Source of the DNA: Allopontixanthobacter sediminis
GTDB lineage: Bacteria > Pseudomonadota > Alphaproteobacteria > Sphingomonadales > Sphingomonadaceae
Reading direction: 5' to 3'
Length of the DNA stretch: 64,000 nucleotides
Assembly: GCF_009828115.1 (NCBI RefSeq)
Contig: NZ_WTYL01000001.1
Span: 992,001-1,056,000, forward strand
The stretch's first letter is position 1. Each line of letters opens with the position of its first letter. Position numbers and translations under genes: made by a program. This document shows, piece by piece, positions 25,253-29,050 of the stretch. The notes under the pieces are model-generated. The model saw only the letters and a program-made list of their open reading frames with translations, ran no database searches and was not told where the DNA came from.

Positions 25253-26200
25253 TCAGAGTGTACCAATTTGCAAATAACGTTCTTCGCGCTGCTGGCGCAA
25301 CTCTGCGGAGGTCTTACCTGAAAGTGCGTCCAGCTCCTCACCAATGATCCGGCCGAGAGATTGCGCGGCTTCCACCGGATCACGGTGGGCGCCTCCCTTG
25401 GGTTCCTGCACGATCCGGTCGATGATCTTCAACTGGAGCAATTGCTGGGCGGTGACCTTCATCGCTTCGGCGGCATCAGGCGCTTTTTCGGCAGTGCGCC
25501 ACAGGATCGAGGCGCAGCCTTCCGGCGAAATCACCGAGTAAACCGCATGTTCGAACATCACCACACGTTCGGCGCTGGCCAACGCAACCGCGCCGCCCGA
25601 ACCGCCTTCGCCGACGATCGTCGCCACCATCGGTACCGGCAGTGCGAGGCAAGCCTCTGTAGAACGAGCGATGGCTTCGGCCTGGCCGCGTTCTTCCGCT
25701 TCGACGCCGGGGAATGCGCCCGAGGTATCCACCAGCGTCACCACCGGCAGTCCGAACCGCCCAGCCAGTTCCATCAAGCGGATGGCCTTGCGGTAACCTT
25801 CGGGTTTGCCCATGCCGAAATTGTGCCGGATACGCGACTGCGTGTCGTGGCCTTTCTCGTGGCCGATCAGCATTACGCGCCGTCCGCCGAGGCTGGCGAA
25901 ACCGCCCAGGATCGCTTCGTCTTCGCCGTACAGGCGGTCACCACCAAGGGGGACAAATTCCTCGAAAGCATGTTCGACGAAGTCCCGGAAATGCGGGCGC
26001 GACGGATGCCGCGCGACCTGCGTCTTCTGCCACGGAGTCAGCGCGGCATAGGTGCTGGCCAGCAAACTGGCGCTCTTTTTCTCGAGACGGCTCAATTCAC
26101 CGGAGATATCGACATCGTCCCCCTCTGCGGCGAGACGCAGTTCTGCGATACGGGCTTCAAGCTGGGCAACCGGCTTCTCGAATTCGAGGTATGCAATCAT
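25253..26200 (-). CDS. accA: Acetyl-CoA carboxylase carboxyltransferase subunit alpha
   Basis: Alpha subunit of the carboxyltransferase that makes malonyl-CoA, the first committed step of fatty-acid synthesis. The 315-residue product begins MIAYLEFEKPVAQLEARIAE. It has RPHFRDFVEHAFEEF, the GHEKGHDTQSRIRHNFGM signature, LVDTSGAFPGVEAEERGQAE, and GEGGSGGAVALA in the CoA-binding crotonase-fold core. It is 15 bases downstream of xerD, probably co-transcribed. Its partners accB, accC and accD are not in the window. Confidence 0.97.
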   Translation of the reverse strand: MIAYLEFEKPVAQLEARIAELRLAAEGDDVDISGELSRLEKKSASLLASTYAALTPWQKTQVARHPSRPHFRDFVEHAFEEFVPLGGDRLYGEDEAILGGFASLGGRRVMLIGHEKGHDTQSRIRHNFGMGKPEGYRKAIRLMELAGRFGLPVVTLVDTSGAFPGVEAEERGQAEAIARSTEACLALPVPMVATIVGEGGSGGAVALASAERVVMFEHAVYSVISPEGCASILWRTAEKAPDAAEAMKVTAQQLLQLKIIDRIVQEPKGGAHRDPVEAAQSLGRIIGEELDALSGKTSAELRQQREERYLQIGTL

Positions 26201-26215: not shown

Positions 26216-27106
26216 CTACTCGCTGCGATCGGCAAGGGGGCGGACTCTCGTTTTATCCCGTTGGCGCGCCAGGGGGTGCCGCTCGTTGACCAGCGCAACG
26301 AGCCGCGCGCTGTCCACGTGGGTGTAGATTTGCGTGGTGGCAATATCGGCATGGCCAAGCAATGTCTGGAGCACGCGAAGGTCCGCCCCGCCCTCCAGCA
26401 AATGGGTCGCAAATGCGTGGCGCAGGACGTGCGGGCTGATCTTTTCCGGCGGCAGGTCGGCCCGGACGGCAAGGTCTTTCAGCATCTGGAACAAGCGAAC
26501 GCGCGACAGATGGCTACCGCGGGACGGGAACAGGAATTTATTGCCGGGCCGCGCTTTATTACCCCTCAGCGCCGCCCAATCCGCCAGCGCCGCCCTCGCC
26601 CGCTTGCTGACCGGCACCATGCGGGCTTGTCCGCCCTTGCCGTTTACCGTCAGTAGCGGGGCGTCGCGCGGGATCGCTGACAGCGGCAGCGACACCAGTT
26701 CGGTCGCGCGCAAGCCGGAACCGTAAAGCATCTCGAGCAGCGCCAATAACCGGACCGCAGCCGGCTTTCCGCTGGAAGCTTCAAGTTCCGCCTGACCGAA
26801 CAGGGCGGAAATCTGGCTGTGCGAAAGGATTTTCGGCAGCGGTCGCCGCGGCGTCGCTCGCGGCAGGGCGGCAGAGGGATCGTCGGCGCGGACACCTTCA
26901 TCCATGAGGAACCCGTAGAACTGCCGCAGCGCCGAGGCTTTCCGGGCCAGGCTGGACGGTGCGAGGTCGGACCATGCGGGGCCAAGCTTGGCCAGGTCCG
27001 AGGCTTGCGCGCTGGCCAAGTCGCCAATCCGTTCCTGCGCACCTTCGAGATCACGGCGATAGGCCAGCATCGTGTTGATGGCGGCGCCGCGTTCGGCGGC
27101 AAGCAT
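26216..27106 (-). CDS. xerD: Site-specific tyrosine recombinase XerD (true start probably an AUC at 27136)
   Basis: Chromosome dimer resolution at dif with XerC and FtsK. The catalytic set is visible: Arg in YGSGLRATELVSL, Lys in VNGKGGQARMVPV, HVLRHAFATHLLEGG (HxxR), HADIATTQIYTHV (His and nucleophile Tyr). From the first usable ATG (27106) the protein is 296 residues, but it then lacks the conserved start of helix 1. The frame continues upstream as ISGEIDSFLA, aligning with the family IEQFL segment, with no ATG, GTG or TTG before the stop at 27173-27175. AAAGGAAG lies 7 bases before the ATC at 27136-27134, so a non-canonical AUC start adding 10 residues is likely. Confidence 0.93.
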   Translation of the reverse strand: MLAAERGAAINTMLAYRRDLEGAQERIGDLASAQASDLAKLGPAWSDLAPSSLARKASALRQFYGFLMDEGVRADDPSAALPRATPRRPLPKILSHSQISALFGQAELEASSGKPAAVRLLALLEMLYGSGLRATELVSLPLSAIPRDAPLLTVNGKGGQARMVPVSKRARAALADWAALRGNKARPGNKFLFPSRGSHLSRVRLFQMLKDLAVRADLPPEKISPHVLRHAFATHLLEGGADLRVLQTLLGHADIATTQIYTHVDSARLVALVNERHPLARQRDKTRVRPLADRSE

Positions 27107-27172
27107 CGCCAGGAAGCTGTCGATTTCACCAGAGATGGCGAGGCTTCCTTTCTGCCATGCTTCACGCCGGAA

Positions 27173-29050
27173 TTACCCGCGCGCGACCGCTTCCGCAGCG
27201 ATCATGCGGGCTTCGGCGGACATCCCGACGCGGTCGAGGGCCGAGACGATATGGTACAGGTGCATCGCGGTCATCTTGTCCCACCCCTCGCCCTGCATGC
27301 CGACACCGGCCAAATAGGCGACCAGGGCCGGGTTGCGGACTTCTGCCGCCCGGTCGATCAAGCGGCTCCACTTGGATTCGCGCCCGAGATTTACGGACAC
27401 GCGGCCAGAAAGGTCGGAGATTGCCGACTGCTCAATCCGGCCGAGCCCGGCCAATCCTGCCAGCAGGAATTGCGACTTGCGCTGCTCTGCGCTGGTATCG
27501 TCATCGAAAAAGCTGTCGAGCGCGCCCGTATCAACCGAACTGTCCCGCTGAGGCTGCGCAAGCGCGAGCAGTGCCCAACCCTGGCTTCCCGGCTCCACTA
27601 CCGAGGCCCAGCGCAAAGCGTTGCGGTCCAACCCGGCCGCGAGCATCGAGGCGATCAATTGCCCGGCATCAGCCTCGAAATCGGAACTGGGTGGCATCCG
27701 GGCGGCAGCATAGGCGGTCAGCACCGATCTGCTGTAAGGCGCAGGCCCCTCCCCGCTCCAGATGGACTTCATTGCGGCCAGACGGTCTCCCGGGCTGGTT
27801 CCGACATAAGCAGTTTGCAGCAGCTCGGCGGTTTGTGCGGGGGAGCCTTCGAAATCGTCGATTGCGTAGACCTGCGAGTACAGATCGACCAAGGCCGCCG
27901 AAGACAGGATGCCCTCGCTCGCGGCGCGCCCGGACGCGGCGATACGTTGCGGCAAAGCCAGCATAGGGGCGACTGCGGACACCCGGTCGTAATACGCCCC
28001 GGCATTTTCCAGCAGGCTGGCGGGTACCTCCGCGCCTACGGCGGTCGCCAGCGCGAAGCGCCAAGGGGTCATGTCCTCCACGGTATCCCATTCAAGCGTC
28101 ACCGCCCGGCGTCCGCGTCCGGCAGCCCCGGCATAGCGCTGGGCAAGCAGCACATCGATGTCGGGCGCGATCTGCCGCGAGAGGGCACGGTTAAGCTGCG
28201 AATTAGCACGCGCACCCTGCCCCGAATACGCATCGCAGATCGACTGGAGCATCCGCCATTGCGGGTCCTCGCGTTCGCCGCCCTGCAGCTTGATCGCCGG
28301 ACATGCGCCGACGAGATCCGCTGTACCGATATAGGCCGTCAGCGCGGTGTCAGTCAGCCGCTTGTCCCAATTGCTGGTGTCAACATCCTGGACCAATGTC
28401 CGCGCGGTCGAGAACTCTCCCAAGCGGTTAAGGGCATTCGCGCGCAGGGCCGCAAATTCGACCGGGTCCATCCCTTGCGGCGCTGCCAGACGACTGGCCA
28501 ACGCGCGGCGCAGCATGATGTGCCCCCAGCGCGATACCACTGGCCCCTTGGTGCCTGCCAACGCAGCCCGAACGATCGAAGCGGGCTGGTTCGCCAAGGC
28601 CACCGGCGGCAGTCCGCCTTCCTCCGCGCTCAGTATCCCCACCCGCGACAGCGAACGGCGCGCTGCAGGCGGGATATCGAACTTCGGTTTGAGACCGAGC
28701 AATTCGTCCAGTTCATCGGAGTCCATCGACTCCAGTTCGCTCAGCGATGGCAAGCCGTCGGGGACGTCGATGGGTTCCTGGCTGGTTGGCGCGCTTGGCG
28801 ATGGCAGCGGCTGGACGACCGGTGTTCCGTCCGCCGGAGGTGTGACCGGTGCAGTAGGTGCGCGCGTCGTCGGGGACGGACGGGGCGCGGGCGACGGAGT
28901 AGGAGCGGGATCGTCGAAACCCGGCGGCAACAAGGATGTCGGCGCAGCCTGTGCAATGGCCAGCGCCGAACACAACGCCAGTGCACCCGCTCCGGCAAAC
29001 AGGGCCCGTCGCAGCGGCACTATCGCGGATTTTTCTGGTTTTCCGCTCAT
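27173..29050 (-). CDS. Secreted/membrane-anchored helical-repeat protein, unknown function
   Basis: A 625-residue product with a membrane or signal segment at about 14-36 (FAGAGALALCSALAIAQA), a Pro/Thr/Ser-rich linker (about 42-95), then a long mostly alpha-helical domain rich in Ala, Leu and Asp resembling tetratricopeptide/Sel1-like arrays without a clear repeat I can delimit. Cleavage after AQA would release it to the periplasm. It starts in the ATGA overlap with the 52-residue membrane protein upstream, and xerD follows 66 bases downstream. I do not recognise the family beyond a conserved hypothetical type seen in related bacteria. A periplasmic scaffold is one possibility. Confidence 0.8.
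   Translation of the reverse strand: MSGKPEKSAIVPLRRALFAGAGALALCSALAIAQAAPTSLLPPGFDDPAPTPSPAPRPSPTTRAPTAPVTPPADGTPVVQPLPSPSAPTSQEPIDVPDGLPSLSELESMDSDELDELLGLKPKFDIPPAARRSLSRVGILSAEEGGLPPVALANQPASIVRAALAGTKGPVVSRWGHIMLRRALASRLAAPQGMDPVEFAALRANALNRLGEFSTARTLVQDVDTSNWDKRLTDTALTAYIGTADLVGACPAIKLQGGEREDPQWRMLQSICDAYSGQGARANSQLNRALSRQIAPDIDVLLAQRYAGAAGRGRRAVTLEWDTVEDMTPWRFALATAVGAEVPASLLENAGAYYDRVSAVAPMLALPQRIAASGRAASEGILSSAALVDLYSQVYAIDDFEGSPAQTAELLQTAYVGTSPGDRLAAMKSIWSGEGPAPYSRSVLTAYAAARMPPSSDFEADAGQLIASMLAAGLDRNALRWASVVEPGSQGWALLALAQPQRDSSVDTGALDSFFDDDTSAEQRKSQFLLAGLAGLGRIEQSAISDLSGRVSVNLGRESKWSRLIDRAAEVRNPALVAYLAGVGMQGEGWDKMTAMHLYHIVSALDRVGMSAEARMIAAEAVARG

Follow-up and report, generated by a model that had tools for sequence, protein, structure and literature searches.

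A probable AUC start codon in xerD of Allopontixanthobacter sediminis, within a recurrent AUC/AUU/AUA pattern in related genomes

The xerD locus and its start region

The window, the whole stretch of 64,000 nucleotides from Allopontixanthobacter sediminis that was analysed, carries three neighbouring minus-strand genes that concern us here. An upstream gene of 625 aa (27173-29050) is followed by a tyrosine recombinase gene with a role in maintaining the chromosome (26216-27136, 306 codons when counted from the AUC proposed below as its start codon) and, 15 nt past the stop of the latter, by accA (25253-26200), which matches TIGR00513 and NF004344 above cut-off, starts with ATG and served as a within-locus control. 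The upstream ORF had no match in Pfam or NCBIfam profile searches; by eye, its start resembles a signal peptide. A homolog of this gene sits before xerD in 165 of the 166 loci compared below.

The genome has two close Xer copies, and the one in the window is the XerD-like copy. Its product scores 295.7 bits with NF001399 (cut-off 279), and it scores higher with the XerD equivalog TIGR02225 (266.6 bits against a cut-off of 329.6) than with the XerC model TIGR02224 (226.9 bits), below the model's own cut-off in both cases. The N-terminal SAM-like domain (PF02899) and the catalytic phage-integrase domain (PF00589) are both found above their gathering scores, and the best PDB match is E. coli XerD (1a0p, E = 7e-49), with an alignment that begins at query residue 4. 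The other copy (L009) has a higher XerC score (267.9) than XerD score (207). On relative score only, xerD is the better name for the gene in the window.

In the minus-strand frame of xerD, the upstream stop TAA (27175-27173) is followed by TTC CGG CGT GAA GCA TGG CAG AAA GGA AGC CTC GCC and then by ATC (27136-27134), from which the frame continues as TCT GGT GAA ATC GAC AGC TTC CTG GCG to an ATG (27106-27104). As a preliminary description of this DNA had reported, the frame contains no ATG, GTG or TTG from the upstream stop to 27106, although the N-terminus encoded there is conserved. The ATC begins 36 nt past the end of the TAA. The Shine-Dalgarno (SD)-like sequence that the same description placed 7 bases before the ATC is AAAGGAAG at 27151-27144; in the sister gene L002, AAAGGA is equally far from the ATG. 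The SD-like energy of the focal gene is average (-5.6 versus a median of -5.7). That some 22 codons go by with no canonical start is unremarkable taken alone; what exceeds chance is that the ATC stands in the column where four of the five congeners have ATG, and that ATC, ATT and ATA recur in that column across the family. We write AUH for AUC, AUU or AUA.

Folding of the RNA near the focal start (27080-27180) gave a predicted pairing of AGGAAGC, within the SD region, with GCUUCCU in downstream codons (z = -2.35). A hairpin over the SD and the AUC was rejected as a feature of the class, since the start-region folding energies of AUH and canonical genes are alike (p = 0.55). A promoter scan of the xerD locus found nothing.

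Start codons in the genus and the family

Six genomes of the genus were compared, the window's own and those of five congeners (G001 to G005). Four of the five (G001, G003, G004 and G005) have ATG precisely at the position of the focal ATC, separated like it by three codons from the helix-1 Ile. The closest congener (G002, locus L002, 85%) has an ATG after the same AAAGGA and at the same spacing as the focal ATC, with about five extra codons after this ATG; an alternative codon alignment pairs an ATC of G002 with the focal ATC, and its row was therefore counted as ambiguous. The focal genome is alone among the six in having no ATG at the start position. Its gene is otherwise intact, is 77-85% identical to those of the congeners, and is nested together with that of G002 in a tree group whose remaining members are canonical. 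Because the congeners have ATG and the tree neighbours are canonical, the preferred reading is that the focal AUC took over from an AUG not long ago; a base error is a less likely reading of the same facts. The preliminary description had offered use of the AUC and mutation of ATG to ATC as alternatives, and had proposed a comparison of the codon in close relatives. Each alternative holds in part, the ATC having apparently taken the place of an ATG still present in congeners and, for reasons given below, very likely being used.

For the wider comparison, xerD genes were drawn from GTDB r220 genomes and from genomes of the window's family. Matches that were below 55% identity or began after query residue 15 were left aside (23 loci, XerC copies among them). 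The 179 loci with at least 60% identity were kept and collapsed to 166 non-redundant ones; a canonical start 7 to 11 codons upstream is present in all 14 loci whose identity falls from 55 to 60%. The AUH class comprises 35 of the 166 genes (23 ATC, 9 ATT and 3 ATA), a proportion for which the 130 closest of 396 matching family genomes were read, and which is not a family-wide rate. A further 124 genes are canonical, 3 are ambiguous in having both kinds of codon, and 4 are other.

In 31 of the 166 genes the whole stretch from the upstream stop to helix 1 is free of ATG, GTG and TTG. In these genes codon -4, counted from the helix-1 Ile or Val, is ATC in 17 cases, ATT in 9, ATA in 2 and another codon in 3, while each of columns -12 to -5 and -3 to -1 has AUH in 0 to 2 cases. 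Set against the frequency of AUH in xerD bodies (1145 of 46,575 codons, 2.5%), the 28 AUH codons among 31 give a binomial probability of 4e-42, uncorrected for relatedness. Seven further genes have AUH at -4 with their only canonical codon far upstream. Of the three genes with another codon at -4, two (L070 and L146) have ATC elsewhere, 4 and 3 nt, respectively, past the upstream stop, as if distance to the stop outweighed distance to helix 1. The third (L183) has neither ATG, GTG or TTG nor AUH near its start; its best candidate is a CTG, 7 nt past the upstream stop and after CAGGGGT.

AUH genes were found in 11 of 34 coded genera. All members read have AUH in three genera (g61, 3/3; g62, 4/4; g70, 5/5), and six others (g1, g15, g67, g79, g88 and g96) mix AUH and canonical starts. 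Named isolates with an AUH xerD are Altererythrobacter segetis, Altericroceibacterium xinjiangense and Alteraurantiacibacter aquimixticola. On a tree of the xerD proteins built without their first codons, AUH and canonical states are separated by at least 11 switches; when AUH is scored against all other rows 12 changes are needed, 5 of them forced by well-supported branches, as compared with a mean of 32 after shuffling. Among the AUH codons themselves there are at least 10 changes from one of ATC, ATT and ATA to another, mirroring ordinary Ile codon usage. The pattern across the group is no artefact of sequencing, and the sequences compared place the focal AUC within it, as one instance of something that recurs in the family and not as the oddity of a single genome.

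Control genes behave differently. The homologous accA start is ATG in 162 of 163 loci and AUH in none, and in the lone exception (L058) ATG flanks the position on both sides. XerC has an in-frame ATG start in each of the six congeneric genomes, that of the window among them. When the window was compared with relatives by aligned start columns, the 35 genes with a clear column were canonical in 26 cases, other in 9 and AUH in none; this is a rough control, in which xerD was scored on its internal ATG and many of the 9 other columns are terminal gaps or probably fall on an internal Met.

The AUH codons have a characteristic position relative to the upstream gene. In the 35 AUH genes the gap between the upstream stop and the AUH is 4 nt (20 genes), 3 nt (8 genes) or 2 nt (1 gene), with 17 to 125 nt in the rest. 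A start 3-4 nt past the upstream stop occurs in 28 of 35 AUH genes versus 9 of the 123 genes with a canonical start (Fisher 5e-17, uncorrected for relatedness). In all 29 AUH genes with 2-4 nt spacing the upstream protein ends in Arg-Gly, and the penultimate Arg codon always ends in a purine (CGG 23, CGA 3, AGA 2, AGG 1), versus 51 of 123 canonical genes. With such a codon, the G-rich, SD-like stretch that precedes the AUH by about 8 nt is longer. The Ala codon before the Arg has no purine-ending bias at these 29 upstream gene ends. SD-like duplex energy is stronger in AUH genes (median -6.2 versus -5.3 kcal/mol in canonical genes, p = 5.5e-4). Tree-aware tests of spacing, SD strength and Arg codon had 3 independent pairs on well-supported branches, too few for significance. 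The focal gene is unlike most AUH genes here, having a 36-nt spacer and the separate SD-like AAAGGAAG in place of the tight spacing.

Translation from the AUH codon and competing explanations

Several features point to the AUH being a start. The six codons from the AUH to the internal ATG have a pN/pS of 0.27 in AUH genes and 0.34 in canonical genes, and of 0.24 when only the 28 AUH genes that lack a canonical start altogether are taken; since these values are low, the codons appear to be translated. Residue 2 after the AUH is small in all 35 genes (S 20, A 6, G 5, V 3, T 1), as expected for a removable initiator Met. The organism's own infC (L222, G000:C6:7676-8167, minus strand) has AAGGAG followed by ATA, with no canonical start close to this SD and its first ATG about 20 codons past the ATA. 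It most likely starts at this ATA, a conventional feature of infC, which makes it very probable that the organism initiates at AUH codons. Because many relatives carry AUH at the xerD position without an alternative and the residues before the first ATG are constrained, the near-cognate start of the focal xerD is very likely translated, as it is in infC.

Initiation at the internal ATG (27106-27104), the first canonical in-frame start, would shorten XerD by ten residues at helix 1. ATG is found at this codon in 34 of 35 AUH genes and also in 119 of 124 canonical genes; its equal conservation where a canonical start lies upstream marks it as a structural Met of helix 1. The codons before it keep the pattern I/V-D/E-x-F-L-A with mostly synonymous changes, the alignment with E. 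coli XerD begins upstream of it, and in one gene with an ATT start (L139) it is replaced by CTG, which rules out an internal start there. We rejected this start on the coding constraint and on L139, and regard it as highly unlikely for the focal gene. That an ATG was misread as the focal ATC during sequencing or assembly, or that the ATC is a new and harmful mutation in a gene being lost, is also unlikely, if a little less so. It would fit the fact that only this one of the six genomes is without ATG at the start place. Against it, AUH stands at the same codon in 34 other non-redundant xerD genes, including those of the three named isolates, the focal gene is intact in its other parts, and the assembly has 6 contigs and is 99.99% complete. 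Least probable of all is that the N-terminus comes from another near-cognate codon, or from stop read-through or frameshifting out of the upstream ORF. The gene without AUH at the site (L183) may use its CTG, and the upstream ORF is in frame with xerD where the spacing is 3 nt. The AUH column is, however, the only shared one; several genes have a stop directly before a 5-codon stretch in which AUH is the only shared near-cognate codon. Fusion by read-through or frameshift was rejected, as in most AUH genes the gap is 4 nt, so that xerD and the upstream gene are in different frames.

We therefore hold with considerable confidence to the proposal, read from sequence, that translation of the focal xerD begins with the AUC at 27136-27134, which the ordinary initiator tRNA would read as fMet with help from AAAGGAAG, and that the gene exemplifies a family-wide habit in which xerD of Erythrobacteraceae-type Sphingomonadales has switched many times between AUG or GUG and AUC, AUU or AUA at one fixed position. 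In most relatives, ribosomes ending the upstream gene probably re-initiate at the AUH, or are captured by the G-rich stretch; we propose this because the AUH lies 2-4 nt past the stop and about 8 nt past the G-rich stretch of the last upstream codons. The likely effect would be a low, IF3-sensitive yield of XerD, while accA, which comes next in the operon, retains a strong AUG. Along with initiation at the AUC and coupling to the upstream gene, this low rate and its sensitivity to IF3 are what we infer, the last two by likeness to known near-cognate starts.

As to purpose, it is plausible that the AUH serves to keep XerD low; neutral tolerance of a weak start and regulation are about as likely as each other. 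Under neutrality the AUH starts would be real and without regulatory function, the third base of the start codon drifting almost freely, either because few XerD copies are needed or because ribosomes coming off the upstream gene reach the start in ample number. This competes with a regulatory purpose and not with use of the AUC as a start, and we give it a substantial chance, somewhat below even. In its favour, switching may have gone many times in both directions, and the interchange of ATC, ATT and ATA follows ordinary Ile codon usage. On the other side, G is under-represented at 2-4 nt spacing (5 ATG among 34 ATN starts versus 43% G at fourfold sites, uncorrected for relatedness), and the purine-ending upstream Arg codons of all 29 tightly spaced genes suggest that initiation strength still matters. 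The regulatory counterpart, which we put forward tentatively, is that selection on Erythrobacteraceae-type xerD may repeatedly have favoured a weak AUH, making XerD dosage depend on the level of IF3 and on ribosomes terminating upstream, with synonymous codons at the end of the upstream gene evolving to tune re-initiation.

Relation to known near-cognate starts

A near-cognate start is in itself a known device, used by infC, sigR and pcnB, and AUC, AUU and AUA starts normally permit only weak protein production. E. coli pcnB starts at AUU and is similar to the present case in having an AUH start on an enzyme kept at a low level, that enzyme being one other than XerD. We know of no recurrent switching or stop-codon spacing pattern in pcnB.

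The infC gene starts with ATT in E. coli and ATC in Streptomyces and is associated with autoregulation by IF3 (PMC5472188). Its likeness to xerD is in the AUH start with an SD sequence, which the focal genome's infC also has. In contrast to infC, xerD does not encode a translation factor, so that self-feedback would be absent; its codon toggles with AUG or GUG among close relatives, and most of its cases abut an upstream stop. In Streptomyces sigR, a GTC start is repressed by IF3 and sets protein dosage (PMC5472188). There too a clade has conserved a near-cognate start in an operon whose products may be needed in set proportions, and gene finders limited to ATG, GTG and TTG serve such starts poorly. 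The codon (GUC), the gene and the clade differ from ours, and the IF3 effect is experimental for sigR, whereas for xerD it is a prediction. In general, IF3 disfavours initiator pairings with weak third-base matches (PMC10158994) and represses near-cognate starts (PMC5472188).

Our literature search, which covered titles and the openings of abstracts, found no description of a non-AUG start in xerD, of repeated gain and loss of a near-cognate start across one family, or of a tie to a position 2-4 nt past a stop. Switches from AUG to AUH are extremely rare in surveys: among 61,358 ancestral AUG starts, one switch to AUU and two to CUG are reported (PMC5622118), a count of AUG-to-AUH switches that may be too low if that survey rests on annotated starts. 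Here one gene in one family provides at least five to eleven. Paired species with and without the AUH form a natural series for testing AUC, AUU and AUA initiation in bacteria, and the series could also be used to test compensation by nearness of the upstream stop and by SD strength, and the translational setting of XerD dosage. In dozens of genomes, gene finders restricted to ATG, GTG and TTG would call xerD too short or give it a wrong start.
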